A program made the translations under genes and the position numbers. 64,000 bases of DNA, taken from contig NZ_CP097349.1 in assembly GCF_023516215.1 (NCBI RefSeq), forward strand, positions 4,554,001 through 4,618,000, in the 5' to 3' direction. Shown here one piece after another: positions 7,141 to 21,541 of this stretch. The DNA comes from Cytobacillus pseudoceanisediminis. Lineage in GTDB: Bacteria > Bacillota > Bacilli > Bacillales > Cytobacillaceae. The notes beneath the pieces were generated by a model that saw nothing but the letters and a program-made list of their open reading frames with translations, ran no database searches and was not told the origin of the DNA. Each line of letters starts with the position of its first letter. Position 1 is the stretch's first letter.

Positions 7141-7803
7141 ATGGGCTATCGGGTACCGCTGCTTAGAGGGTTAAAGGAACCTTATTTGATTTCACATCAG
7201 CTGAGGAAAGAGGAGAGACTGTCAGGTTTATGGAAGCAGGTTCTGCTGGTCATGTTGCTGAGCGCGCTAGTGTACGGGCTAAGTGCCTACTTCGGCATTG
7301 GGAGCGAGCAGACATCAAGAAGCTTGACGGATATGTCCAGAAGCGAGTATGAGCTGTACAAGCTGTTCTTTGGCGGCGGACAAATCGTTTTTGGCGTTAT
7401 TTATGCTGCCATGATCATTTTCGTGCCCTCGCTGCTTTTTTGGACGCTAGTTGATGTTGAATACCGAAAGCTGATCAGCATTCAGCTGATGGTGATGCTG
7501 ATTCTCTTAATGGAAAAAGCAATAAACATTCCACTTTTTCTTATTCTGGGGTTAAACAGTGAATCATCGCTATTTTCACTCGGCATCATCGCTCAGGCGG
7601 CCTCATTTCCGGAGCTTTTAATCTATACCTTTTCCGTGATTACGCTCTTTAAAATATGGACATTTGTCCTGCAATATAAGTACTTAAAAGTCGTTTCCGA
7701 AAGAAGCCCTCGCTTCCTGATATTCATGCTGATCGGAACGCATCTGTTTTTTGTGATTGTCTCGGCTTTACTCTCATCCATTCAATTGGAAAAGCTAATT
7801 TAA
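7141..7803 (+). CDS. Yip1-like integral membrane protein (YknW-like)
   Basis: A 220-residue protein with five hydrophobic segments after a ~30-residue cytoplasmic N-terminus, matching the Yip1-domain proteins such as B. subtilis YknW, which helps assemble the YknXYZ exporter. The next gene encodes an HlyD-type adaptor, as in yknW-yknX, which is the main reason for this call. No ATPase or permease (YknY/YknZ) follows here, so the module is incomplete or its partners are elsewhere. Ribosome site GGGGGAT precedes ATG 7141. Confidence 0.65.
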   Translation: MGYRVPLLRGLKEPYLISHQLRKEERLSGLWKQVLLVMLLSALVYGLSAYFGIGSEQTSRSLTDMSRSEYELYKLFFGGGQIVFGVIYAAMIIFVPSLLFWTLVDVEYRKLISIQLMVMLILLMEKAINIPLFLILGLNSESSLFSLGIIAQAASFPELLIYTFSVITLFKIWTFVLQYKYLKVVSERSPRFLIFMLIGTHLFFVIVSALLSSIQLEKLI

Positions 7804-9072: not shown

Positions 9073-9372
9073 CTAATAATAAGGATCTTCGTTACCAGAT
9101 CGGGATCTGAACAGGATGCCGATAAACATAATCACGGCTGTAATCAGCCATACAATCATAAAGGCTGAGCCAAGTGAAAAAGAGTTACTCGCATAGTTCA
9201 TGCTTTGCTCAGTATAGACGATATACACAAGGGGTACTGCATTCAAAAGGAAAAAAACAATAATGGCAGCCAGCTTTATTGGCGTCTGATGCTGAAGCTT
9301 GGAATAAATTAAAAGAAGACTCGTTAATAATAAAGATAAGGACCAAAATGTAATAATGCCTACGATGTTCAT
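9073..9372 (-). CDS. Small three-helix membrane protein, unknown function
   Basis: A 99-residue protein with three strongly hydrophobic segments (about residues 4-22, 35-52, 68-87) and a short charged tail RSRSGNEDPYY. ATG 9372 follows AGGAGGAG at good distance, so the gene is probably real. I do not recognise a family. It stands alone between the terminator of the efflux adaptor and the 3' end of the endopeptidase gene. Confidence 0.6.
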   Translation of the reverse strand: MNIVGIITFWSLSLLLTSLLLIYSKLQHQTPIKLAAIIVFFLLNAVPLVYIVYTEQSMNYASNSFSLGSAFMIVWLITAVIMFIGILFRSRSGNEDPYY

Positions 9373-9469: not shown

Positions 9470-10531
9470 CTAGTAAAAACGTTTAAATCCATCAAAATGG
9501 CTCTTCCAATACGAATTATCCAGACTGGAAACTTCAACGCCTGATGAGCCAGCGTGGATAAATTTATTATTTCCTACATAGAAACCTAAGTGAGAAATGC
9601 CTTTCTTATATGTATTCTCGAAAAATACTAAATCGCCAGGCTGAGGCGTATTCACATAAAAAGAGCGGCTGTAGTAGCCTTCTGAAGAGTAGCGTCCCAT
9701 TTTGGAGCCTGTCTGTTTTAGGACATAATAGATGAATCCGCTGCAGTCAAAGCCTGAAGGTGTTTGGCCGCCCCATTGGTATGGAACACCTACATGCTTT
9801 TGGGCTTCGGCAAGAACCGATGCTGCTGCTCCGCTTGTCTGCTCATTATTTCCTGGCTTCCCGCTGGAAACAGATTCATTTGAATCCTTGTCTGCACTTA
9901 AGTTTAGCTTTTGTCCGATCAGAATTAAATCAGAACTTAGTTTATTCCACGCTTTAATCTGTTGAACAGTAGTTTTATACCTAGCAGCAATGCCGCCTAG
10001 AGTATCCCCTTTTTTAACTACATATACCTCAGAACTGCCGCCATTTGCAGGGCTTGACGGTGCAGGTGCTGAACCTGTCTGCCCTTGGGAATCTCCTGAA
10101 GTGTTACCAGCAGACTTTGAAACCTTAAAGACTTGTCCTGGGTAGATTAAGTGTGTGCTAAGGCCATTCCAGCTCATTAAATCTTTTAGACTAATATTAT
10201 GATTTAAGGCAATTTTAGATAGAGTATCCCCGCTTTTAACGGTATAGCTTTTGGCTGTATTAGCTGGTGCAGGTGCTGTGTTTCCGCCTGATGGCTGATT
10301 GGATTCAGGCTTCTCTGCTGCCCCTGGTATTTCGAGTTTTTGATTGATTGATAGAAAATCAGAACTTAAGTTATTGGCTTTTTTAATATCCGTAACAGTC
10401 GTTTTGTATTTAATAGCCAGATGATACAGGGTATCTCCTTTTTTAACTGTGTATGTATCGGCGGAAGCCTGAGAGGCAAAGGCAGAAGAAAGCATTGCTG
10501 CAGCAGCAATTGAAACCATCTGTTTTTTCAC
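9470..10531 (-). CDS. lytE: LysM-NlpC/P60 D,L-endopeptidase (LytE-like)
   Basis: A secreted peptidoglycan hydrolase of 353 residues. A signal peptide ends near ASQASA, then three LysM modules begin with YTVKKGDTLYHLA, YTVKSGDTLSKIA and YVVKKGDTLGGIA, separated by Ser/Pro/Gly linkers. The C-terminal NlpC/P60 domain has the catalytic Cys in FDCSGFIYYVL and His in GISHLGFYVG. Such enzymes cut the gamma-D-Glu-mDAP bond. Three LysM modules and this length fit B. subtilis LytE better than LytF or CwlS. The start is GTG 10531 behind AAGGAGTG. Confidence 0.92.
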   Translation of the reverse strand: MKKQMVSIAAAAMLSSAFASQASADTYTVKKGDTLYHLAIKYKTTVTDIKKANNLSSDFLSINQKLEIPGAAEKPESNQPSGGNTAPAPANTAKSYTVKSGDTLSKIALNHNISLKDLMSWNGLSTHLIYPGQVFKVSKSAGNTSGDSQGQTGSAPAPSSPANGGSSEVYVVKKGDTLGGIAARYKTTVQQIKAWNKLSSDLILIGQKLNLSADKDSNESVSSGKPGNNEQTSGAAASVLAEAQKHVGVPYQWGGQTPSGFDCSGFIYYVLKQTGSKMGRYSSEGYYSRSFYVNTPQPGDLVFFENTYKKGISHLGFYVGNNKFIHAGSSGVEVSSLDNSYWKSHFDGFKRFY

Positions 10532-10672: not shown

Positions 10673-11552
10673 CTACTGAATATTTCTGTCGAAAATTGCC
10701 ACTTTTCCAAGTATAAAGTCATTATATCGTTCATCTCTTTGAAGGCGAAAGATATCAAGAGCCTGCTCCATATATTTTTTTGCCAAAACAAGCTGTTCTT
10801 GGAGTTCATAATTAAATCCAATATGATAATGAAGATGCCCTAATAGAAATAGCTGATCCTTCTCTAAGCAGCTTTCAATAGCCTCATTGCAAAGCTTGGT
10901 AGAGCGATCAAAATCCTTTAAGTCTGTATAGGTTTTGGCCGTATTATAAAGAAGCCTGCTTCGGACGGTTTCATCATTTAAATATAGGATTCCTTCTAAA
11001 TGATACATTGCTTGAAGATAGATAGAAAGGGCCTCTGTGTATCTCCCTGCTTCATATAAAAATATTCCTTTGCTATTGAGAATCTCGATTTCCCTTTCAC
11101 TCCACACTTTCTCGAATGTCAAATCGATGGCTCTATCGATGAATAGAAGTGCTTCTTCTAACTGGTGATCGACATGGTATTTGTAAATCCCTTTATGCCA
11201 GAGAAGAATCTGGAAATTTCTCTTGTTGGATGTAAAGAGGGGATTCCTTTCTTCTGATTCCACAATCCCTTTTATGAGGGGGTAATCAAGGTTGCGCCTG
11301 GCTATTCTAAGCTGGTTATTAACCTCCTGAACATAATCAAGCCTAGGGGTCGTTCCGTGCTCAAAGAAATAATTGATATCTACACCCAGCCTCTGTGAAA
11401 TGAAATATAAAGTGGATGCCAAAGGAAGGACATCGCCTTTTTCAATTTTGCTGATTTGCGCCTGTGTACATATATCCTTTGCCAGGTCTTTTGGGAAAGC
11501 CCTGCTGCTTTTCTTAACTCTTTGATTTTTTTCCAATCGCAGAAAAGTCCAA
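10673..11552 (-). CDS. PlcR-like HTH-TPR regulator (RNPP family), two frame breaks near 5' end
   Basis: A cytoplasmic transcription regulator of about 293 residues. The N-terminal HTH_3 domain reads IGKKIKELRKAAGLSQKDLA with ICTQAQISKIEKG as recognition helix; the rest is TPR-type helices (for example the GIFLYEAGRYTEALSIYLQA repeat). This is the size and layout of PlcR, shorter than NprR. The start is TTG 11552, seven bases after AGGAGG. The T7 run 11527-11533 (plus strand) and the T4 run 11489-11492 are each one base short. It is divergent from the second regulator at 12387. No propeptide gene follows it; the next gene downstream is the endopeptidase. Its peptide partner is unknown. Confidence 0.82.
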
Positions 11553-12329: not shown

Positions 12330-12356
12330 TATTATACCTTTTGTGGTAAAATAATA
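12330..12356 (+). promoter_or_regulatory. Inverted repeat upstream of the second PlcR-like regulator
   Basis: TATTATACC (12330-12338) and GGTAAAATAATA (12345-12356) form an imperfect inverted repeat with a single extra A. Its right edge is 30 bases before ATG 12387. It has the geometry of a dimer operator and could serve autoregulation, but it does not match the B. cereus PlcR box, and I found no second copy by eye. Confidence 0.35.
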
Positions 12357-12386
12357 CTATTAATCATACTAAGTGAGGGAAAGCTG

Positions 12387-13274
12387 ATGAATTTAAGTGA
12401 GTATTTAATTGGCGACAGCTTACAATCTTTTCGTCAGTATAAAGGGTTAAGTGTTAAGGAGCTTGCAGAGGGAATATGTTCAGAGGAAGAACTTATTTCT
12501 TTTGAGAGAGAGAAAGCGTATCCAAGTCTGGAAACGCTGAATCAATTAGCAAATAAAATGAATATTGATCTTACGTACTTCTTTAATATTGCCTCGAAGT
12601 CTACCATAAATTATTCTACAGCTGTTATGCAAATTATTAATAAGCACAAGCGGAATTGGAATTATCAGGCCATCTATGAAATTGTGCAAAAGGAACTGGA
12701 TAATCCCATTTTTCAGCCTGTCATGCTGAAGCAATTCCTAGTCTGGCATCAGGGGATCTGTGTTTTTTATCTTGAAAATGATTTTGATAAAGCGATCCAA
12801 ATATTGCATGGCGCTTTAGATCTTACAAATGAAAAAAGGGTCAACTTAACGGAAAGAGAAGTCGAAATACTAGCAAGCATCGCTATTTTATATAAAGATA
12901 TGAATCATTATAAGGAAGCCATATCGTTGTTCAAAAAGGCACTTAATGATTTGGAAAAGCTGCCGCATATCCTTGAGAGCAGAGGGAAAGTCAGGATTCT
13001 ATTCGGCTTATCCCAGGCCTTGACAGAGGTCCGTGAATTCCAGGAATCGCTGGTGTATTGCCAAAAGGGAATTGATATTTGCATACATGAAGAAATCCAA
13101 TATTTGTTTGCCAACCTGCACTATCAAAGCGGAGAGAATCATATAAAACTTGGCAATAAAGAAAAGGGAATTGAGTTTCTTCAAAAAGCTATTTATATCC
13201 TGCAGCTGCAGAAAAATGATAAATTCATCCAAATTGTTGAATCGGAAATGGAAAAATTACTCAATAGATGTTAA
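12387..13274 (+). CDS. PlcR-like HTH-TPR quorum-sensing regulator (RNPP family)
   Basis: An intact 295-residue cytoplasmic regulator. The HTH_3 domain covers about residues 8-65 (IGDSLQSFRQYKGLSVKELA, then the recognition region GICSEEELISFE). Helical TPR units fill the remainder, for example ILYKDMNHYKEAISLFKKAL and SGENHIKLGNKEKGIEFLQK. Length and domain order match PlcR (about 285 residues) rather than the longer NprR or the HTH-less Rap proteins. ATG 12387 follows GAGGG. A short secreted propeptide gene starts 46 bases downstream on the same strand, the same order as plcR-papR. The expected mode is binding of a re-imported peptide by the TPR groove to control DNA binding. Confidence 0.88.
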   Translation: MNLSEYLIGDSLQSFRQYKGLSVKELAEGICSEEELISFEREKAYPSLETLNQLANKMNIDLTYFFNIASKSTINYSTAVMQIINKHKRNWNYQAIYEIVQKELDNPIFQPVMLKQFLVWHQGICVFYLENDFDKAIQILHGALDLTNEKRVNLTEREVEILASIAILYKDMNHYKEAISLFKKALNDLEKLPHILESRGKVRILFGLSQALTEVREFQESLVYCQKGIDICIHEEIQYLFANLHYQSGENHIKLGNKEKGIEFLQKAIYILQLQKNDKFIQIVESEMEKLLNRC

Positions 13275-13320
13275 TATATAAATAATTCAATAAATTATGA
13301 AAAAGAGAGGAGTCAATGTC

Positions 13321-13551
13321 GTGAAAAAATTAATTTTAGCAGGAGCATTGGCATTAGGTGTAATTGGGGTTGGAGCTTCCTTCGCGGGGAACCAGGAGGC
13401 AGGCATTCCATCAGAGCATAGTGTTGTCAAACCGGTAGAGTTAGCCGGCATTCCATCAGAACATAGTGTTGGCAAAACTTTCGAACTAGCTGGTATTCCT
13501 TCAGAACACAGTCCGGCATTTTCAACATACGGGATTCCATCAGAGCATTAA
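13321..13551 (+). CDS. Secreted pro-pheromone with four GIPSEH copies (PapR/Phr-like)
   Basis: A 76-residue precursor. GTG 13321 is chosen because AGAGGAG (13306-13312) lies eight bases upstream; the in-frame ATG 13297 would precede this site. The signal peptide is KKLILAGALALGVIGVGASFA with a cleavage site around SFA-GN. The exported part contains four identical hexapeptides Gly-Ile-Pro-Ser-Glu-His spaced 15, 15 and 13 residues, preceded by Ala in copies 1-3 and Tyr in copy 4. The last copy ends the protein, as mature PapR does. Known PapR types end in [LMV]PFE[FYH], and IPSEH has the same hydrophobic-Pro-x-Glu-aromatic/His form. The active peptide is probably 6-8 residues. Confidence 0.85.
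   Translation: MKKLILAGALALGVIGVGASFAGNQEAGIPSEHSVVKPVELAGIPSEHSVGKTFELAGIPSEHSPAFSTYGIPSEH
13402..13548 (+). repeat. Four in-frame copies encoding GIPSEH
   Basis: Copies lie at 13402-13419, 13447-13464, 13492-13509 and 13531-13548. The first two full units are 45 bases each and share the 15-residue form GIPSEHSVxKxxELA. The six codons differ only at third positions (Gly ggc/ggc/ggt/ggg; Pro cca/cca/cct/cca; Glu gag/gaa/gaa/gag; His cat/cat/cac/cat), with no amino-acid change. Confidence 0.95.
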
Positions 13552-13569
13552 TATATCAGTCTTCTATTA

Positions 13570-13596
13570 AAAACGGGAATTTTCCCGTTTTTTTAT
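13570..13596 (+). terminator. Terminator of the regulator-propeptide unit
   Basis: AAACGGGAA pairs with TTCCCGTTT across a two-base loop and is followed by a seven-T run. It lies 20 bases behind the propeptide stop and closes the two-gene unit. Confidence 0.85.
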
Positions 13597-17379: not shown

Positions 17380-19391
17380 ATGAAAAGATGGTTGGTTTTA
17401 CTTATTTCTATTCTATTCCTGGCATTGCTGAGCGGCTGCAATAAAGATGTTAAGCCTCAAGACCGTTTTGCCCAGTATGTTGAGCATTGGAATAAGCAAG
17501 AGTTCGATAAAATGTATGAGTTTCTGTCAAAAAGCGCTAAAGAGTCTATCAGCAAGAAGGACTTTGTAAACCGCTATGAGAAGGTATATAAAGATTTAGA
17601 GATTAGCAAGTTGAAAGTTACATATAAACCAGATATGGAAAAAGAATATAAGAAGGAAGAAAAGGCTGCTCTTCCATTTTCAGCTTCCATGGATAGCGCA
17701 GCAGGAAAAATTGAATTCACTCATGACGCCAGCCTGGTGAAGGAAGAAAAAGAGGATGAGAAGAGCTGGTTTGTTGCTTGGGATACAACTTATATTTTCC
17801 CGGAGCTTGGACCTGAGGATAAAATCAGCTACAGCACCGTTCCGGCACAGCGGGGGATATAGTAGACCGCACAGGTGACCCGCTGGCTTTAAACGGAACT
17901 TTATATGAAATTGGTGTTGTTCCTGAGCAGATGGAAGGCCAAAAGGAGCAGACAATTAAAGGTCTCTCATCCGCCTTGGGCATCTCAGAAGAGCAAATCA
18001 ACAAGAGCCTGAATGCAGACTGGGTACAGCCAGGATACTTTGTTCCAATTAAAAAAGTCTCCCCGGATGACAAGGCAACACTAGATAAAGCGTTTGCTCT
18101 GAAAGGTGTTGTGAAACAGGATATAAAAGGAAGAATCTATCCTTTCGGTGAGGCATCAGCTCATTTGGTTGGCTATGTAGGCCCCATTACAGCTGATGAA
18201 CTAAAGAAGAATGAAGGGAAAGGATATTCCTCCACTGATATCATTGGAAAAAGAGGACTGGAACAAGTACTTGAAGAACGGCTGAAGGGAACAAACGGTG
18301 TCAAAATTGGCATCACAAAGAAAGATGGTTCTGAGGTTGTGTTATCAGAAAAACCTGTGGAAAATGGCGAAACAATTGAGCTGACAATCGACATCACTCT
18401 CCAGAAGCATCTATATGAAGAACTGAAGGGAAGTCCGGGAACTTCTGCTGCAATTGATCCGGTTACAGGTGATACGCTTGCTTTAGTCAGCAGTCCAAGT
18501 TTCGACCCGAATGAGGCTTCGCTGGGCTTTACCGCTGAGGAGTGGAAGCAGCTTGAAGAGAACAAGGATATGCCACTCATGAACCGATTCAAGCAAACCT
18601 ATGCTCCAGGTTCTGTGATGAAGCCAATCACAGGAGCTGTTGGACTATCCGAAGGGACACTGACACTTGATGAAACCATTCAAGTGAAAGGACTTAAATG
18701 GCAAAAGAGCAAATCATGGGGCAGCTATCAGGTAACACGTGTTAAGGATCCGAACGGGCCTGTTGATTTTGAAAAAGCCATGATGTACTCAGATAACATC
18801 TATTTCGCTAAAGAGGCACTTGATCTTGGAAAAGAGAAATTCTCTGCGGGCTTAAAGAAGTTTGGCTTTGAAGAAGAGGTTCCTTTCCCATTCCCGATCG
18901 AACAATCCCAGATTGGCGGTCTGGACAGTGAAATCAAACTGGCAGATTCAGGCTATGGACAGGGAGAAGTGGAGATGAGCATCCTTCATCTGGCAGCATC
19001 CTATACGCCTATTGTCAATAAAGGCTCTCTCATAAAGCCGGTATTAATGGGAGAGGAAGAAAAGAATCAGGTGTGGAAAGAAAATATTATCAGTGAGGAA
19101 ACAGCCAATACTGTAGAAACGGCCATCACCAAAGTGGTTCAGGAGCCTTCCGGAACAGCTCACTCTGCGAATATGAAGGATTACCCGCTTGCCGGAAAAA
19201 CAGGCACAGCCGAGCTGAAAAGAAGTGCAGAGGAAAAAGGACAGGAAAACGGCCTGTTTGTTGCCTATAATCCAGGGGCACCTAAACTGCTGATTGCAAT
19301 GATGATAGAAGGCGTTGAAGATAAAGGCGGTTCAAAGGTTGTTGTGGAAAAGGTAAAGAAGGTATTTGAAAAAAATAAAGATCGATTTTAA
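17380..19391 (+). CDS. pbpC: Class B penicillin-binding protein (PBP3/PbpC type), frame break
   Basis: A lipoprotein transpeptidase of about 670 residues, the length of B. subtilis PbpC. The lipobox is LLSGC at about residues 16-20. An NTF2-like MecA_N domain (residues ~25-155) precedes the PBP dimerisation region. The transpeptidase domain has SVMK (SxxK) in YAPGSVMKPIT, SDN (SxN) in YSDNIYFA and KTG in AGKTGTAEL. It crosslinks peptidoglycan at the membrane outer face; this architecture often has low beta-lactam affinity. The break is at the G5 run 17852-17856, where six Gs restore RGDIVDR. AAGGAGGG precedes ATG 17380. Confidence 0.92.
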
Positions 19392-19845: not shown

Positions 19846-20886
19846 ATGAGGAAGATTATGAGGAAATTAGGCGTTGTTCTATCAGTTTTAGTCTTAATTT
19901 TCAGTTTGTTCAGCCCTGCCGCTTCAGCTCAGAGTCCGGAATTTGAGGAAGAATTTAAGCAGTATTTAAGTGACATTAGCGCAATCAGGGGTTTTGAAGT
20001 TACGAAGGAAGACATTGAAATGGTTCTTTCCATGTATGATGAAACTATTGAAGATTATGATTCTGTACAAGAGCTTAGTGAGTCCCTTGGTGAAGTAATT
20101 AAAGCTGATTTAAGCAACATTCAATATATCTATGATGATTATGAGTTGAATGAGGAGTCTTTAAGAAGCTTGCTTGCAGAATTTGGTGAAGAACTGGAGG
20201 ATTACATTTTTGTCGGTGATCTTGAGGAGAGCGTATTTTTTTATACTAAAGATGAGATTGTCGATGAAGATATGATTCTGGAACTATTAGAGGTGTTTAA
20301 AGCTGAATTTGATTTAACAGATGAAGAGATTGAGAGATTGAAGAATCATCTCATTTCGATAGAGGATGACCTTTTGAGCCCTGAAACCATGGCCCGGATG
20401 GAGGAATTATCTTATCGGATGATGGCTATTGGAGAGTTCGATGAGACAGGGGAACTGAGTTCAGAACAAGTAGAGGAATTGCTGTCAATTTTTGATGAAC
20501 TGCTTTCCATTTATCAGGTAAAAGCAGAGTATACTCTTATCACTAAAGGTACTGAAAAGAACCTGACTCTTCTTGAATTAGTAAATATGAAGGAATTGAT
20601 CAATGCCAAGCTGAAAATCAGTATTTATAATCTGGCAGGCGATTTCCTGGCAGATATCATCATCACAGGTGAAATGTTTGATTCAGATTTAATTAAAGAA
20701 ACAGGCAAGGATATTACAAATGCAGCGGAAAAAGTGGAAAAGGTGAAAAAGCCTTCCTCTGAAAATAAAACAGTAAAAGGCGGAAAGCTCCCAAATACAG
20801 CTTCCAACAATCTTATATATGGGGTTCTTGGACTGCTCGGGATTATGGTCGGCATGACATTATTCCGCAGAGTAAGGGAAAGATAA
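19846..20886 (+). CDS. Processed acidic surface protein with LPxTA sorting signal
   Basis: A 346-residue, strongly acidic protein: signal peptide ending PAASA, about 250 residues rich in Glu/Asp (for example DEEIERLKNHLISIEDDLL), a lysine-rich spacer, then LPNTAS, a hydrophobic segment NLIYGVLGLLGIMVGMTLF and RRVRER. This is a class D sortase substrate with LPxTA rather than LPxTG, of the processed acidic surface protein family. The sortase gene follows after one base, which supports a dedicated pair. ATG 19846 and 19858 are both possible starts. It should end up covalently attached to the cell wall. Confidence 0.88.
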   Translation: MRKIMRKLGVVLSVLVLIFSLFSPAASAQSPEFEEEFKQYLSDISAIRGFEVTKEDIEMVLSMYDETIEDYDSVQELSESLGEVIKADLSNIQYIYDDYELNEESLRSLLAEFGEELEDYIFVGDLEESVFFYTKDEIVDEDMILELLEVFKAEFDLTDEEIERLKNHLISIEDDLLSPETMARMEELSYRMMAIGEFDETGELSSEQVEELLSIFDELLSIYQVKAEYTLITKGTEKNLTLLELVNMKELINAKLKISIYNLAGDFLADIIITGEMFDSDLIKETGKDITNAAEKVEKVKKPSSENKTVKGGKLPNTASNNLIYGVLGLLGIMVGMTLFRRVRER

Positions 20887-20887
20887 T

Positions 20888-21541
20888 ATGAGGCAAGAGA
20901 AAAGCCGAAGGAATAGAGAAGTCAGCCACAGAAAGCGGCTGCTTCTTCTTTTCTTTAGTTTAAGCTTAATTGTGCTGGGGCTTTGGTTTACTACGACAAG
21001 CGTCTATAAAGTTGGAAAAGGGTATATCTCTTATAAGATGAATGCGCCTGAAAGAGAAATGGAGCTAAAGAAAGAAGTCTCTGCAGCAGGAAAAGTGGAA
21101 GAGGAAGAAGAAAAGGAAGTTTTATACCCGGATAAGCCGGAAGTAGGCGAGGAAATCGGTGAGCTGTACATCCCGAAAATCAAATCCGTGCTGCCGATTA
21201 TCCATGGAACAGATGAAGATGAGCTTGAAAAAGGCGTAGGGCATTATGCCGGCAGTGTAATGCCGGGGGAAAAAGATAACTCTGTCCTTTCCGGTCATAG
21301 AGATACGGTCTTCAGAAGGCTGGGTGAAGTAGGCGAAGGAGATATTCTGGAAGTAACGACAAAGGCCGGAACCTTTGAGTACCGTGTCAATAAAGTGCGG
21401 ATTGTGGATGCGGACGACAGGACGGTAATTGTCCCTAAACCGCGTGCTATGCTGACGGTTACAACCTGCTACCCATTTGATTTTATTGGTGATGCACCAC
21501 AAAGATACATTCTGGTTGCCCATCTCATATCCAAAAAGTAA
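20888..21541 (+). CDS. Class D sortase
   Basis: A 217-residue membrane-anchored transpeptidase with an N-terminal basic stretch, one membrane segment (about 19-38) and an acidic juxtamembrane helix. The catalytic triad is visible: His in VLSGHRDT, Cys in TVTTCYPFDF, Arg in APQRYILVAHL. The short form and the paired LPxTA substrate fit class D. It should cut the neighbouring protein between Thr and Ala and join it to peptidoglycan. The gene starts one base after the substrate stop, so expression is coupled. Confidence 0.92.
   Translation: MRQEKSRRNREVSHRKRLLLLFFSLSLIVLGLWFTTTSVYKVGKGYISYKMNAPEREMELKKEVSAAGKVEEEEEKEVLYPDKPEVGEEIGELYIPKIKSVLPIIHGTDEDELEKGVGHYAGSVMPGEKDNSVLSGHRDTVFRRLGEVGEGDILEVTTKAGTFEYRVNKVRIVDADDRTVIVPKPRAMLTVTTCYPFDFIGDAPQRYILVAHLISKK

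Follow-up and report, generated by a model that had tools for sequence, protein, structure and literature searches.

Background

The closest described system to the locus reported here is PlcR-PapR of the Bacillus cereus group. Proline 4 and glutamate 6 are critical in PapR7 (PMC6568020), PapR peptides of class IV end in LPFEH (PMC5007282), and K197 of PlcR lies at the end of the groove where the C-terminus of PapR is held (PMC5007282). Multi-copy propeptides are reported in the AimR, NprR, PlcR and Rap subfamilies, with up to six copies, and repeats occur in 3 of 15 long propeptides of the PlcR subfamily (PMC9765709); the accessible part of that survey text contains no PlcR-type propeptide sequences.

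The locus was analysed within a 64,000-nucleotide stretch of Cytobacillus DNA (the window), and its nearest named receptor is that of C. oceanisediminis 13_TX (98% identical). It is considered, with a probability of roughly 0.87, as a peptide quorum-sensing pair composed of a PlcR-type receptor and an amplified precursor. The computed support consists of the pairing of receptor and precursor, purifying selection on the repeat copies, confinement to one clade, and co-variation between receptor and precursor.

Organization of the locus

An initial sequence-only reading had described an intact 295-residue HTH-TPR regulator of PlcR size, followed in the plcR-papR order by a small secreted precursor repeating GIPSEH four times, the last at the C-terminus. 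The regulator frame, the gene order and the four cores were all confirmed (Table 1); GTG 13321 is separated from the receptor stop by 46 bases, and the signal peptide was judged by eye. The N-terminal HTH of the receptor matches HTH_3 with 27.8 bits (cut-off 23), and the C-terminal TPR peptide-binding domain is present. Its nearest solved relative is PlcR (E-value 1.7e-18 for the sequence alone, 3.9e-32 as a profile); the next RRNPPA entry, 5w4m (Rgg2), comes at 3.3e-9 and ranks below two engineered TPR proteins. In fold and in sequence, the receptor is nearest to PlcR.

Table 1 Features of the receptor-precursor locus and its surroundings (positions in the window)
Feature	Position	Strand	Evidence or remark
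PlcR-type receptor, 295 aa, intact	12387..13274	+	N-terminal HTH and TPR domain (RNPP_C)
Secreted multi-copy pheromone precursor, 76 aa from GTG	13321..13551	+	frame open from ATG 13297
Ribosome-binding site GAGAGGAG	13305..13312	+	sequence and alignment
Sec signal peptide MKKLILAGALALGVIGVGASFA, probable	13321..13386	+	sequence, read by eye
Core copy 1, (EA)GIPSEH	13402..13419	+	
Core copy 2, (LA)GIPSEH	13447..13464	+	
Core copy 3, (LA)GIPSEH	13492..13509	+	
Core copy 4, (TY)GIPSEH, C-terminal	13531..13548	+	
Intrinsic-terminator-like hairpin 3' of precursor	13569..13592	+	one found, 1.0 expected in shuffles
Best conserved block 5' of receptor, probable promoter	12341..12386	+	alignment of 12 loci
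Recognition-helix segment SEEELISFEREKA, residues 32-44, acidic, non-canonical	12480..12518	+	model helix 33-40
Codon of K201, co-varying with precursor architecture	12987..12989	+	LR 22.2, rank 1 of 190 columns scored
Orphan PlcR-type paralogue, divergent, no precursor seen	10673..11536	-	canonical helix TQAQISKIEKG
LysM-NlpC/P60 endopeptidase and 99-aa membrane-like ORF	9073-9372 and 9470-10531	-	next to locus

The likely start of the precursor is GTG 13321 (76 aa) rather than ATG 13297 (84 aa), because the candidate ribosome-binding site is spaced for the GTG and because an ATG occupies its place in relatives (e.g. L010-L012, L038, L039 and L041). In relatives, the precursor has a hydrophobic N-terminus that starts with lysine. 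Each of the four GIPSEH copies is written with different codons, the differences being silent only. Searching the whole genome with a GIPSEH-like DNA pattern gave one further match, which runs through a TGA codon. When the mature region was shuffled, any 4-mer was seen at least three times in 14 of 200,000 shuffles, a much weaker condition than a 6-mer present four times. Fourteen homologues of the precursor were collected, of which five bear an NCBI name, "hypothetical protein".

Distribution and phylogeny

A receptor of at least 45% identity was found in 23 of the 34 other genomes of the genus searched. Directly 3' of it, a repeated precursor was present in all 24 close relatives read (the 23 best hits and one more from the same family, G036); among more distant receptors (32-36% identity), it was present in none of the five read. 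The working set comprised 88 loci (80 from a scan of named genomes, 7 from other genomes, and the window), 49 of which encode precursors with at least two cores, at 2-16 copies per precursor. The sequence-only reading had proposed a search of other Bacillaceae for adjoining GIPSEH-like precursors and would have been refuted by orthologues consistently devoid of one; this was not the case among the close relatives read. Cores follow the form x-[ILYF]-P-x-x-H in 27 variants (e.g. GIPSEH, DLPSQH, GYPVQH, DYPSQH, GLPTQH and EIPTRH).

L040, L045 and L075 were dropped as duplicates or near-duplicates, which reduced the 49 multi-copy loci to 46 rows for the tree, co-variation and precursor-end analyses; they remain among the 49 in the copy counts and the helix comparison. 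Rows L086, L087 and L100 were dropped as false precursor calls and L059 and L067 for contig ends, and L054 (Ns) was left out of the tree tests. In the tree of 85 receptors, all 46 multi-copy rows fall in one clade of 49 rows (support 100/96), the other three being L054, with a precursor cut by Ns, and L059 and L067, with repeats that reach the contig end. The label "multi" takes four changes on the tree as given, because these three rows carry other labels. Outside the clade lie L086, L087 and L091 (no precursor found), L095, and the single-copy Priestia rows.

Repeats with a conserved histidine can serve other roles, and the repeat protein might be a secreted product foreign to signalling (e.g. 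antimicrobial, metal-binding or wall-bound) placed beside the regulator by chance. Such a coincidence is highly improbable: the single-copy form, found in Priestia, Metabacillus and a few others (11 loci and L095), is a PapR-like precursor of 39-49 aa ending in LPNQH, LPSQH, LPAQH, LPEQH or LPDQH; the precursor was found beside this one receptor clade; and receptor residue 201 tracks precursor architecture, as detailed below.

Two systems with different cores coexist in each of three strains: C. horneckiae 1P01SC (GLPTQH and EIPTRH), FJAT-29937 (DYPVQH and GIPTHH) and S/N-304-OC-R1 (DYPVQH and DLPSIH). C. oceanisediminis YPW-V2 has a copy on a 281-kb plasmid (L118, 7995-9069), with GYPTQH twice in a C-terminal arrangement and K at residue 201. 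In phages, only matches of 22-23% identity were obtained. Multi-copy systems may be under-counted, because precursors longer than 100 aa (16 of 49) fall outside the default propeptide range of RRNPP_detector, 10-100 aa (PMC10075063). Two database labels, or the assemblies behind them, may be wrong: a record labelled Chryseobacterium sp. ISL-80 (L055) has a Mesobacillus-like locus, and Bacillus methanolicus DE0196 is a close match to Robertmurraya siralis (L045/L111).

Selection on the repeat copies

Copies after the first were compared within each gene for 37 precursors with at least three cores, core sites being restricted to the free positions 1, 2, 4 and 5. Core codons gave pS 0.54, pN 0.013 and pN/pS 0.025 (bootstrap 0.010-0.043). 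Flanking codons gave pS 0.46, pN 0.37 and pN/pS 0.79 (bootstrap 0.61-0.99), a ratio raised somewhat because, in C-terminal types, the last copy sits in a context unlike that of the others. An earlier run (core 0.02, flank 0.77) had used a core whose definition includes P and H, so that its pN was necessarily lowered. Neither run took in copies lacking the final His; near-core hexamers of this kind, not counted as copies, occur in five precursors, one of them only cut by Ns. Silent sites are much changed and the copies are therefore old; their residues are nearly frozen, under purifying selection.

Selection bears on the possibility that only the C-terminal copy is a pheromone, the internal copies being unprocessed passengers of repeat expansion. 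The mature peptide of PapR is C-terminal (PMC6568020), and the upstream context of the last core is unlike that of the internal ones in most of the 27 core-ended precursors. However, the low pN/pS extends over all copies after the first, which argues that internal copies are selected too; in 19 precursors no core lies at the C-terminus, and the duplicated Phr3T and Phr105 yield several mature pheromones (PMC11343458). Confinement of the signal to the last copy is accordingly held to be unlikely.

Receptor residues and precursor layout

Among the 46 rows with at least two cores, the precursor ends exactly on a core in 27 (C-terminal type) and runs past it in 19 (run-on type). Lysine at residue 201 was present in all 27 receptors of the C-terminal type versus 2 of 19 of the run-on type. 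Exceptions to the rule are L019 and L051, where an internal type keeps K, and L089, L097 and L095, which are C-terminal single-copy rows outside the clade without K; L095, with Y201 and a C-terminal core, was classed as single-copy only after the tests. On the tree (57 rows), a dependent model outperformed an independent one (LR 22.2, 4 df, p 1.9e-4). In a scan of columns having 8 or more minority rows (190 scored; some may be missing), residue 201 came first and the next column reached 10.5. This position had been listed on account of published work on K197, ahead of its scoring. Six greedily chosen independent contrasts between residue 201 and architecture were all concordant, two of which become neutral with other tips (L019 or L051; L089 or L097).

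In the profile alignment, K201 stands opposite PlcR K197. Read by the TPR register (Pfam matches), R203 would be the K197 equivalent and K201 would lie two residues before it, and the single-sequence alignment agrees with this register. By either alignment, residue 201 is predicted to sit at that end of the groove which receives the PapR C-terminus in PlcR. Signal and sensor appear, from these sequence comparisons, to have changed together, and this co-variation of precursor layout with a receptor residue looks new.

For the run-on precursors, to which the window's does not belong, the signal could be the whole repeat unit (e.g. a 14-mer ending in LA), K201 having been lost accordingly. This is a real possibility, if somewhat short of an even chance, and it is compatible with the pheromone-pair reading preferred here. 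Consistent with it, the last two residues fit [LIVFM][AVS] in 16 of 19 run-on proteins and closely resemble what precedes most cores, repeat units measure 11-17 residues in 17 of 19 run-on precursors, and the distribution of K201 between the two types is as given above. Against it, the C-terminus could still be trimmed back to His, conservation is much higher in the core than in the residues ahead of it, the ends of L056, L068 and L078 do not fit the pattern, and the cores of L077 are preceded by IS.

At residue 91, the place of PlcR K89 (read from the profile alignment), all 14 receptors whose core ends in -SEH carry W, and the remaining 32 of the 46 multi-copy receptors carry R; W91 follows a single branch and may reflect one event. 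Mutual information linking core residues to receptor columns is confounded by ancestry, and residue 201 was the only column followed with tree-based tests.

The recognition helix

The (S/T)QAQIS motif was found in none of the 49 multi-copy receptors and in 11 single-copy receptors. The window receptor has SEEELISFE in place of (S/T)QAQISK(I/L)E, a canonical helix that is typical of the PlcR subfamily but does not define it. The recognition segment is acidic in 49 of 49 multi-copy receptors; their mean HTH charge is -4.1, compared with 0.0 in 12 rows scored as single-copy (including L054, which is cut by Ns and lies inside the multi-copy clade). The turn glycine is kept in 5 of 49. HTH_3 scores were 52.3 and 49.0 bits for two canonical receptors, 31.3 for L095, and 27.8, 19.5 and 32.3 for three multi-copy ones, the score of 19.5 (L064) being under the cut-off of 23. 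The helix change probably came before the repeats, because the single-copy L095 (EPQDLEKIEKG) and L086, L087 and L091 are altered too. Presence of this rewritten acidic helix in all 49 multi-copy receptors looks new, and it raises the question whether the receptor still works on DNA.

Because the recognition helix is rewritten, the receptor is most likely still a transcription factor, one predicted to read a DNA site other than that of PlcR. By eye, no common DNA site was seen upstream of the receptors in four groups, namely the window group and three further groups of 10, 5 and 4 loci, whose alignments contained no common palindrome. A regulon could not be drawn from a motif: a 23-base pattern taken from the promoter block, even when up to 3 mismatches are allowed, has a single occurrence in the genome.

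A rather unlikely, if still arguable, reading is that the receptor senses the peptide and no longer reads DNA, its acidic former HTH having become a protein-binding face (DNA mimic or anti-activator); this may represent a further origin of a Rap-like receptor, separate from that of Rap itself, with the orphan paralogue or other regulators as targets. The missing canonical motif, the negative charge, the low HTH_3 scores and the rarely kept turn glycine would all fit, as would the intact canonical paralogue adjoining the receptor in the window's branch, and RapF blocks a response regulator by DNA mimicry (PMC3246441). On the other hand, the window HTH passes the Pfam cut-off and was modelled as a regular HTH, acidic residues are able to make contacts with DNA, and the orphan neighbour is not seen beside most clade members and has a broken frame in this strain.

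A bolder version, which is doubtful, holds that the clade turned its HTH into an acidic non-DNA module at about the time when the pheromone gene was amplified, independently of Rap, and that the hold on the signal's end and the precursor layout were exchanged together. The two layouts would then correspond to a signal ending at a free C-terminus and to a signal made of the whole repeat unit. If true, this would be a second route from a transcription factor to a pheromone-controlled protein-binding switch.

Neighbouring genes

The divergent orphan paralogue is broken within its HTH in this strain and intact in relatives L037-L042. With flanks of about 4 kb a side for most loci, the window's branch (L008-L012, L017, L037-L042) and L057, L069 and L071 have an adjoining orphan. 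An obligate canonical orphan partner for every altered-HTH receptor was therefore rejected, no orphan being found within these flanks beside the other multi-copy loci. In 11 loci, window included, a LysM-type protein is encoded close to the pair (in the window, one with LysM and NlpC/P60 domains), and in 10, counting the window, a homologue of the 99-aa membrane-like ORF. Neighbours differ between branches, and no target was inferred from them.

Several other arrangements were recorded. In the DLPSQH branch, a GerAC-like spore-germination gene lies 5' of the receptor on the same strand in 11 loci (L048, L052-L055, L058, L059, L061, L063-L065; L061 checked in Pfam). In L034 and L035, orphan-type receptors stand just before a membrane protein resembling, by eye, that of window positions 7141-7803, for which no Pfam match was obtained. 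Downstream of the pair, at window positions 17380-19391 (+), what is presumably one penicillin-binding-protein-like gene appears as two ORFs (17380-17862 and 17931-19391). Positions 19846-21541 (+) encode a protein ending in an LPNTA-like motif, then another ORF; presumably these are a surface protein with an LPNTA-like sorting motif and a sortase-like protein.

Proposed functioning of the pair

The quorum-sensing interpretation put forward in the sequence-only reading is supported by the core pN/pS of 0.025, the single clade (100/96) and the tracking of precursor layout by residue 201. Within this framework we infer how the peptide is exported, cut, imported and bound, as well as the yield gain and the direction of the response. 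The precursor would be exported by Sec and cut, outside the cell or at the membrane, into several short GIPSEH-based peptides. The probable products are GIPSEH or AGIPSEH where EA or LA stands in front of the core, and YGIPSEH or GIPSEH at the C-terminal copy. In the family, 164 of 252 cores directly follow an A; in the window, TY stands before the last core and EA or LA before the others, and two cutting routes may be envisaged. The peptides would re-enter through an oligopeptide permease (the genome has twelve matches to SBP_bac_5, of the oligopeptide-binding type) and bind the TPR groove of the adjoining receptor as PapR binds PlcR, which would switch receptor activity. An amplified precursor would give more signal per message.

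With 27 core variants, 2-16 copies, one clade and one layout-following residue, the family constitutes a natural experiment on how signal and sensor change. It makes two questions testable: why some precursors carry many pheromone copies, and by what means the end of a signal is recognised by its receptor.

Comparison with known systems

Yeast alpha-factor is made from a single secreted precursor in which the pheromone is repeated in tandem. The window precursor differs in having no KR or RR (Kex2-type dibasic sites) between its copies, and the two are not homologous. Phr105 reportedly has two pheromone copies. The phage systems Phr3T and Phr105 resemble the present one in their duplicated pheromones, matured there by distinct processes (PMC11343458), but they are phage-borne and act with Rap receptors that lack an HTH.

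PlcRa-PapRa (CSIPYEY) shares a PlcR paralogue as receptor, Ile-Pro at the same place and an internal peptide, whereas papRa lies upstream, one peptide is named and its end is aromatic (PMC3519770). In the open-access literature, no paper was found with these cores or this clade. The view that no PlcR-type system with this peptide had been described holds in part: the cores were not found there, but multi-copy PlcR-type propeptides have already been noted (PMC9765709).

PlcR-PapR is like the present pair in receptor size, HTH and TPR domains, nearest fold and sequence, order of receptor then precursor, and secretion of the precursor. In line with the resemblance in shape claimed at the outset between IPSEH and PapR pheromones, AGIPSEH and ADLPFEF match at Pro 4 and Glu 6. 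The pair is unlike PlcR-PapR in having 2-16 cores instead of one, those counted here ending in His, an acidic, non-canonical helix, and W or R in the clade at the place of PlcR K89. With the multi-copy RRNPPA propeptides it shares the presence of several pheromone copies per propeptide, four exact ones in the window; it is set apart from them by belonging to a defined clade, by copy numbers of up to 16, by its two architectures and by the co-variation of the receptor.
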